This document shows positions 5,018 to 30,060 of a stretch of DNA of 64,000 bases, one piece after another (the stretch's first letter is position 1; every line of letters begins with the position of its first letter). Made by a program: the position numbers and the translations under genes. The notes below the pieces were generated by a model. It worked only from the letters and a program-made list of their open reading frames with translations. It had not been told where the DNA came from and did no database searches. The DNA comes from Micromonospora violae (GTDB lineage Bacteria > Actinomycetota > Actinomycetes > Mycobacteriales > Micromonosporaceae), in contig NZ_SHKK01000001.1 in NCBI RefSeq assembly GCF_004217135.1, positions 3,534,001 to 3,598,000 of the forward strand. The letters run 5' to 3'.

Positions 5018-6238
5018 TCAGCCCCGTGGTGGCAGGTCGGCGGAGCCCGGCTGGCTGACCGAACCGGTCTGCCGCACGAACTGCTCAAGGACGTCGGCGG
5101 CACGCGCATAGCCGCCCGCCTCGCGCTGGGCGACCTGCAGGGTGCTCGCGGCGGCCCGGAATCGCGGCTCGTCGAGCAGGCGCTGAGCGAGGGCCCGCAC
5201 GGCCTCCACCGTGACGTCCTCGGTGCGGATCGACAGGCCGGCATCGAGCTCGACGATGCGGGAGGCCACCAGCAGTTGGTCGGCGCCCTGCGGGACCACC
5301 AGCGTCGGGGTGCCCGCGTACAGGGCCTCGTTGACGCTGTTCACCCCGCCGTGGGTGATGAACAGCGCGGCGCGGGCCAGCACCTCCAACTGCGGTACGG
5401 AACGGTAGGCGAGCACGTTGTCCGGTAGCGGGCCGAGCGTGGCGGGGTCGGTGTGCCCGGTGGAGATGACCACGGTGCCACCGAGCGGGGCGAGCGCGTC
5501 GGCGAAGGTGCGCAGCAACGTCGGAGCGTCGAACACCGTGCCCATCGAGGCGTACATCACCGGATCTTGCAAGCGATCGACCGGGAACGACGAGTCTGCG
5601 GGGCGGGCACCGATGCTGGGCCCGACGAACTGGTAGGACTGGTCGAAACTGTCCGCCTCCGGGTGGAACGCCCGCGAGGTGTACACCAGGTTGAGCGGCT
5701 GACGGATGTTGGCCAGGTCGATCAGGGGCACCGTGCGGGTGTCGTACCGGCGGCGCAGCTCCCAGCGCGACCTCAGGTACCCCACGGTGGGGCGGGGAAG
5801 GGCCGCCGCCGCCCTGAACAGCTCCCAGGAACCGCGGGTAGGGCTGGGCACGCGCCGGTTGAAGGCGAAGGTGGTAAACGATGATGCGGGCGGCACGCCG
5901 AGTTCCCGGGCGGCCACCGGCCCCCACGGGCAGAGCGAGTCGTGCACGATCAGGTTGGGCCGGGTGCCCCGCAGATCGGTGAGGACGGCCGGCAGCACGC
6001 GTACGGCGGTCCGCGCGAGCTGTTCCATCACCGTGACGGGCGTCGGCGGACCGGACAGCGGTGCATCCTCCCCGTGGTAGAGGAACACCCGTGCCCCGGT
6101 GGCCGCGATCTGCTCGGCATGGTTCGGCGTGGTGTGGTACGTGACGGAGTGACCACGGCGCACGAGCTCACCCACAACGGGCAGTGTCGGGTTTATGTGC
6201 CCGTGCATGTTTATGTTCAGGAATGCCACGGCGCTCAT
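5018..6238 (-). CDS. GT1-family glycosyltransferase (MGT type)
   Basis: A 406-residue protein with the two-Rossmann GT-B fold. The N-terminal acceptor domain begins AFLNINMHGHINPTLPVVGEL with the usual early His. The C-terminal donor domain has VMYASMGTVF and the nucleotide-sugar signature ALFITHGGVNSVNEALYAGTP followed by PQGADQ. This is the macrolide/antibiotic glycosyltransferase group that uses NDP-sugars. The start is placed at ATG 6238 because homologous proteins begin a few residues before this strand; an upstream ATG at 6298 would add an unrelated tail. First gene of a three-gene operon. Acceptor unknown; resistance or sterol/lipid glycosylation are options. Confidence 0.8.
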   Translation of the reverse strand: MSAVAFLNINMHGHINPTLPVVGELVRRGHSVTYHTTPNHAEQIAATGARVFLYHGEDAPLSGPPTPVTVMEQLARTAVRVLPAVLTDLRGTRPNLIVHDSLCPWGPVAARELGVPPASSFTTFAFNRRVPSPTRGSWELFRAAAALPRPTVGYLRSRWELRRRYDTRTVPLIDLANIRQPLNLVYTSRAFHPEADSFDQSYQFVGPSIGARPADSSFPVDRLQDPVMYASMGTVFDAPTLLRTFADALAPLGGTVVISTGHTDPATLGPLPDNVLAYRSVPQLEVLARAALFITHGGVNSVNEALYAGTPTLVVPQGADQLLVASRIVELDAGLSIRTEDVTVEAVRALAQRLLDEPRFRAAASTLQVAQREAGGYARAADVLEQFVRQTGSVSQPGSADLPPRG

Positions 6239-26382: not shown

Positions 26383-26955
26383 GTGCCCAGAGTAAGCCAG
26401 GACCAGCTCGACGCGCGCCGGCAGGAGATCCTCGCCGCGGCCCGGGCGTGTTTCGCCCGGCTCGGCTACGAGGGGGCGACCGTCCGCCGCCTCGAAGAGG
26501 CCACCGGCCTGTCCCGCGGCGCGATCTTCCACCACTTCCGCGACAAGGACTCGCTCTTCCTGGCTGTCGCCGAGGACGACGCCGCGGCCATGGTCGAGAC
26601 GGTGGCCCGCAACGGTCTGGTGCAGGTGATGCGCGATCTGCTCGCCCGCGCCGTCTCCCCGGACACCACCGGCTGGCTGGGCAGCCAACTGGAGGTCTCC
26701 CGGCGGCTGCGCACCGACCCCGCGTTCGCGCGCCGGTGGGCCGAACGGTCCGCCGCGATCGCGGAGGCGACCCGGGACCGGCTGGCCCGCCAACGCGACG
26801 CCGGAGTGCTCCGCGAGGACGTACCGATCGACGTGCTGGCCCAGTTCCTGGAGCTGGCCTACGACGGCCTGGTGCTGCACCTGGCCATGGGCCGACCCGC
26901 CGGTGACCTGGGCCCGGTGCTCGATCTGGTCGAGGAGGCGGTCCGCCGCCACTGA
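26383..26955 (+). CDS. acnR: TetR-family repressor, AcnR type
   Basis: A 190-residue TetR protein. The helix-turn-helix region reads FARLGYEGATVRRLEEATGLSRGAIFHHFRDKDSLF. The ligand domain contains LEVSRRLRTDPAFARRWAER and DVPIDVLAQFLELAYDGL. Both parts closely follow what I recall of Corynebacterium AcnR, the aconitase repressor that senses citrate and Mg. In corynebacteria acnR lies beside acn; here it is 15 kb away, but the same 18-bp operator is found at both loci. Translation starts at GTG 26383 of a leaderless mRNA. Confidence 0.85.
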   Translation: MPRVSQDQLDARRQEILAAARACFARLGYEGATVRRLEEATGLSRGAIFHHFRDKDSLFLAVAEDDAAAMVETVARNGLVQVMRDLLARAVSPDTTGWLGSQLEVSRRLRTDPAFARRWAERSAAIAEATRDRLARQRDAGVLREDVPIDVLAQFLELAYDGLVLHLAMGRPAGDLGPVLDLVEEAVRRH

Positions 26956-27036
26956 CCGCCCCGACACCGGCCGATCGACCATGGCGAGGCTGCTCCACAA
27001 TGGGGCCGCCGATCCCTCCGGTGACAGGAGCAGTCG

Positions 27037-27963
27037 ATGATCGTCCACGCCGCGTCCGGTGACACCTGGGGCATCCCCGGCCCGACCTTCCTGCGGTACT
27101 ACCTCGCGGCGGCCGTCCTGGTGGTGGTGATTACGGCGTACCACCGGGTCCGTCTCGCCGTCGGATCGACGGCATCCATGACCGCCGACCCACTCGGGCC
27201 GCAGCAGGTCGCCTACCTCAACGAGGGTCCTCAGCTGGCCGTACACGCCGCACTCGGCGGGCTGCGTGGCAGCCGTGCGATCGGTGTGCGACCGGACCGC
27301 CGGCTGACCACCGCCGGGGCCGCGCCGACCGGGCTCACCCCGCTGGAGCAGGCCATCCACTGGGCCGCGCACCAGCACGCCCGCGCCGGCGACCTGCCGC
27401 GCGACGAGCGCGTACGCATCGCGCTGGACCAGATCCGCGACGGCCTGGAGCAGCGGGGGCTGCTCACCAACGACGCACAGCGCGCCCGGGCCCGCTTCTG
27501 GGCCACGATCCTCGCCGTCCTGCTGGGCGTCGGTGTGTTCCGACTGGTCTCCGGCCTGTTCAACGATCAGCCGGTCGGTTACCTGCTGCTCACCCTGGTT
27601 CCGCTGCTGATCATCACGCTGCTGCTGCGCCGGGCGCCCATGCTCACCCGCGCCGGTCGGGCCGCCCTACGCTCCGTCCGCCGCGCGCACGCCCACCTCG
27701 CGCCGGCTTCCGCGCCCGCCTACACCACCTACGGAGCGGCCGGCGCGGCGATGGGCGTCGCCCTCTTTGGCACCGCCGCGCTCTGGGCGCTCGACCCGGG
27801 CTTCGCCGCACAGGCCGAGATTCAGCGCCAGGCCGCCGCCAGCAGCGGTTGGTCCGGCGGCTCCGACGGATCGTCCGGTGGCGGAGGCGACAGCTCCGGT
27901 GGAGACGGCGGCAGCTCCTGCGGCGGTGGCGGCGGGTGCGGCGGCGGAGGGTGCGGCGGATGA
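27037..27963 (+). CDS. TIGR04222-type membrane protein with Cys/Gly-rich C-terminal tail
   Basis: A 308-residue protein. One membrane helix lies near residues 18-36 (TFLRYYLAAAVLVVVITAY), then a soluble domain with EQAIHWAAHQHARAG, then two more helices near 150-190 and another near 228-250. The tail from about 270 is Ser/Gly/Asp repeats and ends in three Cys (295, 301, 306) separated only by glycine. AGGAG precedes the ATG by seven bases. The stop overlaps the DUF692 start, so it is translationally coupled to an enzyme class known to modify cysteines. I infer that the tail is the substrate. Confidence 0.8.
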   Translation: MIVHAASGDTWGIPGPTFLRYYLAAAVLVVVITAYHRVRLAVGSTASMTADPLGPQQVAYLNEGPQLAVHAALGGLRGSRAIGVRPDRRLTTAGAAPTGLTPLEQAIHWAAHQHARAGDLPRDERVRIALDQIRDGLEQRGLLTNDAQRARARFWATILAVLLGVGVFRLVSGLFNDQPVGYLLLTLVPLLIITLLLRRAPMLTRAGRAALRSVRRAHAHLAPASAPAYTTYGAAGAAMGVALFGTAALWALDPGFAAQAEIQRQAAASSGWSGGSDGSSGGGGDSSGGDGGSSCGGGGGCGGGGCGG

Positions 27964-28778
27964 CCGGCCCGTCCGGGGTCGGCATCGGCTGGCGACCGGA
28001 GATCGCCGGCTTCGTGGCCGAACTGCCCGGCCTGCGCTTCGTCGAGGTGGTGGCCGAGGGGATTCCCGCCTCCGGGCCACTCCCACCCGGCCTGACGCAG
28101 CTGCGGGAACGCGCGGTGACGGTCGTCCCGCACGGGGTGCGGCTCTCCCTCGGCGGCGCCGAGCCGGTCGACCCAGCCCGGGTCGCGCACCTGGCCGCGG
28201 TCGCGCAACGCCTGGACGCCCCGCTGGTCAGCGAGCACATCGCGTTCGTCCGGGCCGGCGGCCTGGAGGCCGGCCACCTGCTGCCGCTGCCGCGCAGCAG
28301 GGAAGCCGTCGACGCGGTCTGCGCCAACGTGGCACGGGCACAGGCCGAGCTTCCGGTGCCGATCGCGCTGGAACCGATCGCCGCGTTGGTCGACTGGCCC
28401 GACGACGAGCTGGACGAGGCCGACTTCCTCACCGAGATCCTCGACCGGACCGGGGCCCTGTTGCTGCTGGACGTGGCGAACGTGCACGCCAACGCCCGCA
28501 ACCGGGGCACCGACCCGCTCGCGTTGCTGGACCGCCTGCCGTTGGAGCGCGTCGCGTACGCCCACGTGGCCGGCGGCGCGGAGCACGCCGGCTACTACCA
28601 CGACACCCACACCGACCCGGTGCCGACGGCGGTGCTGGATCTGGTCGGCGCGCTCTGCGCCCGGCGGCGACCGCCGGCGCTGCTGCTGGAACGCGACGGC
28701 CACTACCCGCCGGCCGCCGAACTCCGCGCCGAACTGGACGCCCTGGCCGCCGCCGCGGGCTTCCCGGCCGTGACATGA
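27960..28778 (+). CDS. DUF692 multinuclear non-heme iron oxidase (MNIO)
   Basis: A 272-residue TIM-barrel protein. Metal-ligand motifs appear in order: VVPHGVRLSLGG, LVSEHIAF, IALEPIA, LLLLDVANVHANARN, YAHVAGGAEHAGYYHDTHTDPV and LLLERDGHYP. These match DUF692 enzymes such as MbnB, TglH and the bufferin enzyme BufB, which use two or three iron ions to oxidise Cys or Asn side chains in peptides. ATG 27960 overlaps the previous stop and its own stop overlaps the next start. Known relatives need a partner protein, which the next gene probably supplies. Confidence 0.9.
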   Translation: MTGPSGVGIGWRPEIAGFVAELPGLRFVEVVAEGIPASGPLPPGLTQLRERAVTVVPHGVRLSLGGAEPVDPARVAHLAAVAQRLDAPLVSEHIAFVRAGGLEAGHLLPLPRSREAVDAVCANVARAQAELPVPIALEPIAALVDWPDDELDEADFLTEILDRTGALLLLDVANVHANARNRGTDPLALLDRLPLERVAYAHVAGGAEHAGYYHDTHTDPVPTAVLDLVGALCARRRPPALLLERDGHYPPAAELRAELDALAAAAGFPAVT

Positions 28779-29314
28779 CGGGCACACCCGACGGCGAGTC
28801 CGCGCCCCGCGCCGGGCTCGCCGAGCGGCAGGCCGAACTGGTCGCGGCGCTGGTCGCCGGGGGTACGCCACCGGCGGGGTTCGCGCCGGGCCCGCTGGCC
28901 GCCACCCGCGCGGCCCTGCTGCGCAAGCGGGCCGGCGAGGTGGCCCGACACTGGCCACTGCTCGCCGCCGGCCTCGGTGCCGGTTGGTCGAAGACCTTCG
29001 CCGACTGGGCCGCCCGGCGACCCACCGCCGGATCACTGCGCGACGGTTGGGACCTGGCCCGTGCCCTGCACGACCAGCAGGCGCTCCCCCCGGTGGCCGC
29101 CGAGGAGTTGGCCGTCCGGGAGGCACGCCTGCGCTACGACGGGCGTCGGGCGCCGCGTCCGCGCCGGGCACCGGCGGTGGGCCGCGCCGGCGGCGCCGTC
29201 GCGGTGCAGATCGCCGGCCGGGTACGCCTGCTACGCCCCGCCCCACGTAAATCCATCCTTGCTGGCGACCGTGTACCGGATGCGGCAAGATCGGAGTCAT
29301 GGATCTCGGACTGA
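28775..29314 (+). CDS. Probable MNIO partner protein (SCO6045-like)
   Basis: A 179-residue protein. The helical N-terminus reads LAERQAELVAALVAGGTPPAGF and AATRAALLRKRAGEVARHWPLLAAGLG; the centre has WSKTFADWAARRPTAGSLRDGWDLAR; the end is basic. The opening resembles the putative peptide-binding partner domains (DUF2063 type, BufC/TglI) that sit next to DUF692 genes, and the whole resembles SCO6045-like proteins. It begins in the ATGA overlap with the MNIO gene. The last 15 codons overlap the next gene's start. The assignment rests on context and weak similarity. Confidence 0.65.
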   Translation: MTGTPDGESAPRAGLAERQAELVAALVAGGTPPAGFAPGPLAATRAALLRKRAGEVARHWPLLAAGLGAGWSKTFADWAARRPTAGSLRDGWDLARALHDQQALPPVAAEELAVREARLRYDGRRAPRPRRAPAVGRAGGAVAVQIAGRVRLLRPAPRKSILAGDRVPDAARSESWISD

Positions 29315-30060
29315 CCGACCGCGTGTACGTCCTCACCGGCGCCTCCCGCGGCCTGGGTTACGCGACCGCGCAGTGCCTGGTCGCCGACGGCGCGCGGGTG
29401 GTGCTCTCGGCCCGCGACGCGGATGCCGTGGCCGCCGCCGCCGAGCAGCTGGGTGGCCCGGAGCACGCCGTCGGGCTGACCGGCGACCTGGCCAACCCGG
29501 AGACCCCGGAGCAGCTCGTCGCCGCCGCGCAGGAGCATTTCGGCCGGCTCGACGGCGCGCTGATCTCGGTCGGCGGGCCACCGCCGGGCAACGCCGCAGC
29601 GGTCACCGACGAGCAGTGGCGGCTCTCCTTCGAGACCGTCTTCCTGGGCACCATCCGCGCGGTCCGCACGGTCGCCAACGCGCTGCCCGAGGGCGGCGCG
29701 ATCGGGCTGGTGCTCTCCACCTCGGCCCGTGGCCCGGTGCCCGGTCTCGGCATCTCCAACGGTCTGCGGCCCGGCCTGGTCGGGGCCGCCAAGGACATCG
29801 CCGACGACTTCGGCCCGCGCGGGGTCCGGGTGGTCGGCCTGCTGCCCGGCCGGATCATGACCGATCGCAACCGGGAGCTGTTCGGAGCGACCGGCGACCC
29901 GGAGCGGGCCCGCGCCGAGGCGGAGTCCACCATCCCGCTGCGCCGCGTCGGCGACCCGGCCGAGTTCGGCCGGGTGGCCGCGTTCGTGCTCTCCCCCGCC
30001 GCCAGCTACCTCACCGGGATCACCCTGCCCGTCGACGGTGGCGCGCTGCGCGGGCTGTGA
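29299..30060 (+). CDS. SDR-family oxidoreductase with altered catalytic site
   Basis: A 253-residue Rossmann protein. The cofactor loop VLTGASRGLGYATA is normal and the NAG-type motif is replaced by SVGGPPPGN. The Ser of the triad is in VLSTSARG, but the expected YxxxK reads NGLRPGLVGAAK: Tyr is Asn and Lys is Pro, with a Lys seven residues later. The C-terminus SYLTGITLPVDGGALRGL is typical. It probably binds NAD(P) but cannot use the standard mechanism. It overlaps both neighbours, so it is co-translated with the MNIO cluster and the glycosylase. Confidence 0.8.
   Translation: MDLGLTDRVYVLTGASRGLGYATAQCLVADGARVVLSARDADAVAAAAEQLGGPEHAVGLTGDLANPETPEQLVAAAQEHFGRLDGALISVGGPPPGNAAAVTDEQWRLSFETVFLGTIRAVRTVANALPEGGAIGLVLSTSARGPVPGLGISNGLRPGLVGAAKDIADDFGPRGVRVVGLLPGRIMTDRNRELFGATGDPERARAEAESTIPLRRVGDPAEFGRVAAFVLSPAASYLTGITLPVDGGALRGL

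Follow-up and report, generated by a model that had tools for sequence, protein, structure and literature searches.

TIGR04222 membrane proteins with a Cys/Gly tail as putative substrates of adjacent MNIO enzymes: a three-gene unit of Micromonospora violae and its actinomycete relatives

Described MNIO systems and the Micromonospora unit

The closest described systems are those of Antoine et al (2025, PMC12452194), who reported that TIGR04222 proteins are frequently, although not systematically, linked to MNIO enzymes; in their count, 490 of 1372 TIGR04222 genomes had no MNIO. The paper describes C-terminal Ser/Gly regions with Cys on these proteins, regards them as probably extra-cytoplasmic and proposes subsets of the proteins as MNIO substrates, and a Micromonospora protein was modelled as a worked example. 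PME-type 2 partners, whose fold is likened to NGO1945 or TglI and consists of a helical domain followed by RRE-like strands, are encoded in at least 10% of its clusters. For MNIO enzymes, a preprint (Chen et al, 2025, PMC12636315) describes lipid-anchored products as well as proteins larger than 30 kDa that are modified at their C-terminus; for DybH it proposes that modification precedes export.

The unit studied here lies in a 64,000-nucleotide stretch of DNA (the window) from Micromonospora violae, whose genome comprises 7.14 Mb in one contig; by protein, the closest named relatives among the matches listed are Micromonospora. Its three genes overlap at their start and stop codons, as a preliminary description had noted, with ATGA at both junctions (Table 1).

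Table 1. Features of the three-gene unit (window coordinates)
Feature	Position	Strand	Basis
AGGAG, likely ribosome-binding site of first gene	27026..27030	+	Sequence; 6 bases 5′ of ATG at 27037
TIGR04222 domain-containing membrane protein, 308 aa, putative MNIO substrate	27037..27963	+	NCBIfam match, hydropathy, AlphaFold2
Gly/Ser-rich C-terminal tail, residues 268–308	27838..27960	+	Sequence
C-G5-C-G4-C-G-G tail end, residues 295–308	27919..27960	+	Sequence and homologue alignment
ATGA stop/start overlap, gene 1/gene 2	27960..27963	+	Sequence
MNIO (DUF692, PF05114), predicted iron oxidase, 272 aa	27960..28778	+	PF05114 match, ligand mapping
ATGA stop/start overlap, gene 2/gene 3	28775..28778	+	Sequence
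Partner protein, 179 aa	28775..29314	+	Homologues with Pfam PF26136 (precomputed)

The unit resembles the TIGR04222–MNIO precursors of PMC12452194 in protein family, in the Cys within a Gly/Ser tail, in the adjacent MNIO and in the partner, which is of PME-type 2 in part of the published clusters. It is also comparable to the Bufferin system (BufA/BufB/BufC), where an MNIO acts with a partner, Cys are oxidized and the product lies outside the inner membrane. Unlike in that system, the first protein of the unit has no DUF2282 match and the partner no DUF2063 match; BufB (NF050167) is the best NCBIfam match of the window MNIO at 189.3 bits, short of the 310-bit equivalog cut-off. The DAG-RiPPs and the > 30 kDa proteins of ChrH-like MNIOs (PMC12636315) are alike in that modification falls at the C-terminus of a product that is large or membrane-anchored, but those products are lipid-anchored or secreted and carry CPACGMG, whereas the window protein has several transmembrane segments and a Gly/Cys repeat. 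In the TglH/TglI system (PDB 8hci, 8hi7, 8hi8) the scaffold, TglA-Cys, is a peptide, unlike the membrane protein of the window. The preliminary description had taken a membrane-tethered MNIO product for a new class; because PMC12452194 already proposes such products and PMC12636315 reports lipid-anchored ones, the finding is sound but the class is not new.

The first protein matches TIGR04222 with 169 bits against a cut-off of 43, over model positions 2–229 of 229 (NCBIfam). Its hydropathy peaks at residues 17–35, 157–175, 179–197, and 234–252, and AlphaFold2 (mean pLDDT 80.1) predicts a fairly confident body and a disordered end, with residues 280–308 below 50. Residues 295–308 (CGGGGGCGGGGCGG) contain three Cys with Gly alone between them, in agreement with what had been described. 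We found at least 836 homologues, and the best 120 were listed and read. Of these best 120, 111 end in CGG, 115 have at least two Cys in the last 45 residues, and 106 are Cys-free up to the last 62; six of the nine with other ends are labelled “partial” by their source. On these counts the tail Cys are not due to chance. The comparison suggested in the preliminary description gave the anticipated pattern: among the best 120, the Gly/Ser runs between tail Cys vary in length and the Cys persist, and an alignment of 70 of them shows almost no variation at C301 and C306.

The second protein matches PF05114 with 269.6 bits against a cut-off of 25. It had been credited with every DUF692 metal-ligand motif, and this was borne out by a phmmer alignment to TglH (PDB 8hci/8hi7), in which H58, H93, E138, D171, N174, H202, D215, H217, and E244 of the window MNIO align, nine of nine, with TglH His71, His107, Glu151, Asp184, Asn187, His216, Asp229, His231, and Glu258. 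These TglH residues are the ligands of Fe1, Fe2, and Fe3 (PMC10880893). TglH and 3bww are the only two distinct solved sequences matched by the window MNIO. There were 112 MNIO hits in the window and the loci fetched for the survey described below; the same nine letters occur in all 109 frames spanning more than 150 residues, and the other three hits are pieces of one broken gene (L211). No signal peptide was seen on inspection of the MNIO sequence, and modification of the tail would therefore precede export.

The third protein has no local Pfam or NCBIfam match at E ≤ 0.1, DUF2063 included. It corresponds to the PME-type 2 partners in that its gene follows the MNIO and no DUF2063 signature is found. 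Precomputed PF26136 assignments are present on the 120 listed of at least 1156 partner homologues, and some of those listed are named SCO6045-like C-terminal domain-containing (UniRef). The predicted structure has five helices, three strands, and a short last helix; at a mean pLDDT of 69.4, it is too weak to be placed in the PME-type 2 fold and gave no telling structural match. Compared with solved chains by sequence, the window partner had no match at E up to 1.

Tail cysteines and the MNIO neighborhood across actinomycetes

We searched for TIGR04222 and MNIO in an even draw of 396 genomes from the phylum, in 121 genomes of the family and in 298 of the order. In the phylum draw, TIGR04222 was over the cut-off in 26 genomes, MNIO in 30, and both in 25 (sets compared by eye); the only TIGR04222 genome without MNIO, G013, is a fragmented assembly. 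In the window's own genus, nearly every sampled genome has both. We chose 160 stretches to fetch, giving preference in the phylum draw to matches above the cut-off and in the other sets to a wide range of genera. A TIGR04222 profile seeded with relatives of the window protein gave 212 hits in these stretches and the window, of which 192 passed a length filter; the 20 dropped rows had a domain span below 180 residues or reached the end of the stretch.

The number of tail Cys varied with the position of the gene relative to the MNIO. At least two tail Cys were present in 88 of the 89 copies that immediately precede an MNIO and share its strand (class A), in 25 of 36 upstream but non-adjacent copies (class B), in 5 of 17 downstream copies (class C), and in 21 of 50 copies with no MNIO in the fetched stretch, some of these stretches stopping at contig ends. 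Fisher's test of class A against the stretches without MNIO gave P = 2.4e-15, a value that overstates independence since the loci are related. By genus median, at least two tail Cys were found in 48 of 49 genera for linked copies vs. 8 of 20 for unlinked copies, and in 15 of the 17 genera having both kinds the linked copies were richer in Cys on average. The association described in PMC12452194 is loose, whereas here it holds for 88 of 89 directly upstream copies.

Two or more tail Cys were also present in eleven of the 20 dropped rows. Four dropped rows lie directly upstream of an MNIO and have 7, 7, 4, and 1 tail Cys (the last is L136); with these restored, class A stands at 91 of 93. The exception within class A is L104, with no tail Cys. 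At 5303–6168 of L104 the TIGR04222 frame stops early and a 65-aa Cys/Gly/Ser-rich frame precedes the MNIO; this may reflect a split gene, a frameshift or a free peptide. Twenty further loci were kept out of the class counts. Of their TIGR04222 hits, ten lie beside an MNIO and have at least three tail Cys each, and another, located where a contig ends, is incomplete. L283 and L285–L292 have an MNIO and no TIGR04222 hit; L286–L288 lie at contig ends, and L289–L292 are more distant MNIO types.

In 88 of the 89 class A proteins, Gly and Ser make up at least half of the final 30 residues. The residue after a tail Cys is Gly for 321 and Ser for 75 of the 401 Cys in class A tails. The first gene ends in ATGA or GTGA at 58 of the 89 class A junctions, in the MNIO frame in 51. 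In the 88 Cys-tailed class A proteins, the 25 residues ahead of the last hydrophobic segment have on average 3.84 Lys plus Arg, compared with 1.11 behind it, and a tail on the outside is therefore favored. Charge and hydropathy thus place the TIGR04222 Cys tail probably outside the cytoplasm, in agreement with PMC12452194.

We built a partner profile from relatives of the window partner in four rounds over the loci. Of the 89 class A loci, 86 have a partner as a separate gene after the MNIO and one has it fused to the MNIO (87 in total); two have none. In all 15 class C loci examined, which belong to a Streptomyces-like genus, the partner is fused to the C-terminus of the MNIO; when the unexpanded partner family was compared directly, profile against profile, with this fused extension, the probability was 97.5 (E = 6.5e-12). 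The fusion is further evidence that the two proteins act together. None of the 12 places considered, of 15 in PMC12452194 where “fusion” or “fused” occurs, concerns a partner–MNIO fusion.

Proposed oxidation of the tail and competing readings

We propose that an MNIO–partner complex oxidizes the tail Cys before export, and assign this explanation as a whole a probability of about 0.7; that the TIGR04222 tail is the MNIO substrate is likely. Besides the membrane protein, the three genes would supply an iron enzyme and its recognition partner. In the cytoplasm, the MNIO–partner complex would bind the TIGR04222 protein, perhaps with its folded domain in place of a leader peptide, and O2 at a di- or tri-iron center would serve to oxidize the tail Cys, the majority of which precede a Gly. 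Bufferins and oxazolins suggest by analogy that the product may be a thiooxazole or an oxazolone-thioamide, although an azole-type product on the tail Cys is only a tentative assignment. Following the fourth hydrophobic segment, the modified tail would then pass through the membrane and remain attached to the cell surface, possibly to bind a soft metal there; a role in copper or other metal binding, raised by analogy, is doubtful, and nothing in the present analysis points there. It is similarly speculative that MNIO–partner pairs of actinomycetes repeatedly turn Cys in the disordered tails of multi-pass membrane proteins into sulfur heterocycles, with a folded domain as leader, to give an anchored, multi-site metal-binding brush in the monoderm envelope.

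The tail of an anchored protein had been put forward as the substrate in the preliminary description. This stands in so far as tail Cys track an adjacent MNIO (88 of 89 vs. 21 of 50) and the partner is conserved, and it is weakened by an exception: an MNIO kept where tail Cys are absent, the combination held there to speak against the idea, occurs in 11 genomes of the Streptomyces-like genus. We also count against tail oxidation that a cytoplasmic enzyme must reach a tail ending outside, that Cys tails occur on unlinked copies and on 5 of 23 short forms from MNIO-free genomes (below), and that L104 and the filtered L136 have none and one tail Cys, respectively.

With all initial candidates scored, the 11 Streptomyces-like genomes have 15 TIGR04222 matches, each with 0 or 1 tail Cys. 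In ten of them the MNIO lies beside a TIGR04222 gene with a short, Cys-free tail (L086, L087, L090, L093–L099), and the MNIO of these ten loci retains nine of nine ligands and carries the fused partner; in the eleventh (G383), MNIO and TIGR04222 are on different contigs. An additional, weaker MNIO match is present in the Streptomyces-like genomes G295 and G335. Such loci, and the 21 of 50 Cys-tailed copies away from an MNIO, are what would be expected if the MNIO acted on a substrate encoded elsewhere and the TIGR04222 protein were an export, anchoring or helper protein whose unmodified Cys tail serves thiol metal binding or disulfides. We consider this unlikely, given the Cys tails of 88 of 89 MNIO-adjacent copies. 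In addition, the ten Streptomyces-like loci yielded no other frame with, in the final 60 residues, at least four Cys and at least 25 Gly + Ser, and a search of the M. violae genome found a single TIGR04222 gene and a single MNIO gene, which are the adjoining pair of the window. All 21 unlinked Cys-tailed copies come from genomes with an MNIO elsewhere (phylum, family and order searches, compared by eye), and these proteins may therefore be modified in trans.

Two other Streptomyces-like loci, L089 and L091, have a Cys-tailed copy followed by a Cys-free copy. Judged by the Cys of tail and domain, the surviving TIGR04222 protein of the 11 genomes looks like the Cys-free second member of such a pair, and from this gene order the Cys-tailed gene seems to have been lost from them. 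The exception limits the rule to the arrangement found in the window. Where the copies were readable (L086, L087, L090, L093, L098, and L099), the first hydrophobic segment of the TIGR04222 proteins has a C-x3-C in common.

Less probable still is that the TIGR04222 protein has an older function and that its tail was recruited only in the lineage with a downstream MNIO, other copies having different partners or none. In one family of the order, TIGR04222 is over the cut-off in 21 of 56 genomes, and none of the 21 has an MNIO. The 23 TIGR04222 proteins of this family mostly match the middle of the domain; five of these short homologues have precisely two Cys among their last 40 residues and none has more. 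Full-length TIGR04222 proteins from genomes not listed with an MNIO (G414, G463, G648, G466, and G472) have 0, 1, 0, 0, and 0 tail Cys, so that none of the five reaches two, a second, stop-bearing G414 copy being left out. Our expectation for MNIO-free genomes was fixed after three such cases were known and held mostly, not wholly. Cys-free paralogues also exist: in five genomes of the window's genus (L117, L120, L122, L124, and L126), a second TIGR04222 protein encoded away from the MNIO has an Arg-rich tail with no Cys. The short MNIO-free forms, these paralogues and the 490 of 1372 genomes counted without MNIO in PMC12452194 favor an older function, but MNIO is present in 25 of the 26 TIGR04222 genomes of the even phylum draw, and an older function is compatible with tail oxidation rather than opposed to it. 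In G691 (L211), the MNIO is in three out-of-frame pieces and there is one tail Cys, and in G634 (L200), of the same genus, a full-length MNIO accompanies four tail Cys; the broken MNIO may represent decay or an assembly fault.

That the tail Cys have no function and merely arise from a GC-rich repeat coding for Gly, by change of GGC to TGC, would suit a low-complexity tail of variable length but is very improbable, since Gly/Ser-rich tails without Cys in the last 30 residues number 0 of 88 in class A vs. 3 of 25 among unlinked copies, such tails average 4.18 vs. 2.84 Cys, and C301 and C306 are nearly invariant.

Beyond PMC12452194, the comparison adds three points: the nearly absolute link where the gene lies directly upstream, the partner–MNIO fusion, and the Streptomyces-like exception. 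It sharpens the published proposal and makes it directly testable on a Cys-tailed copy lying directly upstream, taken together with the adjacent MNIO and PF26136-type partner, and offers the Cys-free paralogue and the Streptomyces-like loci as natural negative controls. Modification of the tail, if real, would widen the reach of MNIO chemistry beyond peptides and lipid-anchored products, to multi-pass membrane proteins on the surfaces of Gram-positive cells.

Neighboring genes

A gene for a TetR-type regulator lies upstream of the unit in the window (26383–26955), and similar genes form a cluster found in 27 of 90 loci examined. Downstream, a short-chain dehydrogenase gene (29299–30060) begins within the partner gene, overlapping it by 16 bases. 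Some neighbors recur in class A and Streptomyces-like loci: of 90 loci examined, 12 have neighboring genes that we take from sequence to be HemQ-like and 18 have genes that are presumably MsrB-like; the Streptomyces-like loci have nearby genes that we assume to be HemQ- and HemY-like. In L285 (G567), one of the further loci with an MNIO and no TIGR04222 hit, a nearby 164-aa frame has a Cys/Ser/Gly-rich end.
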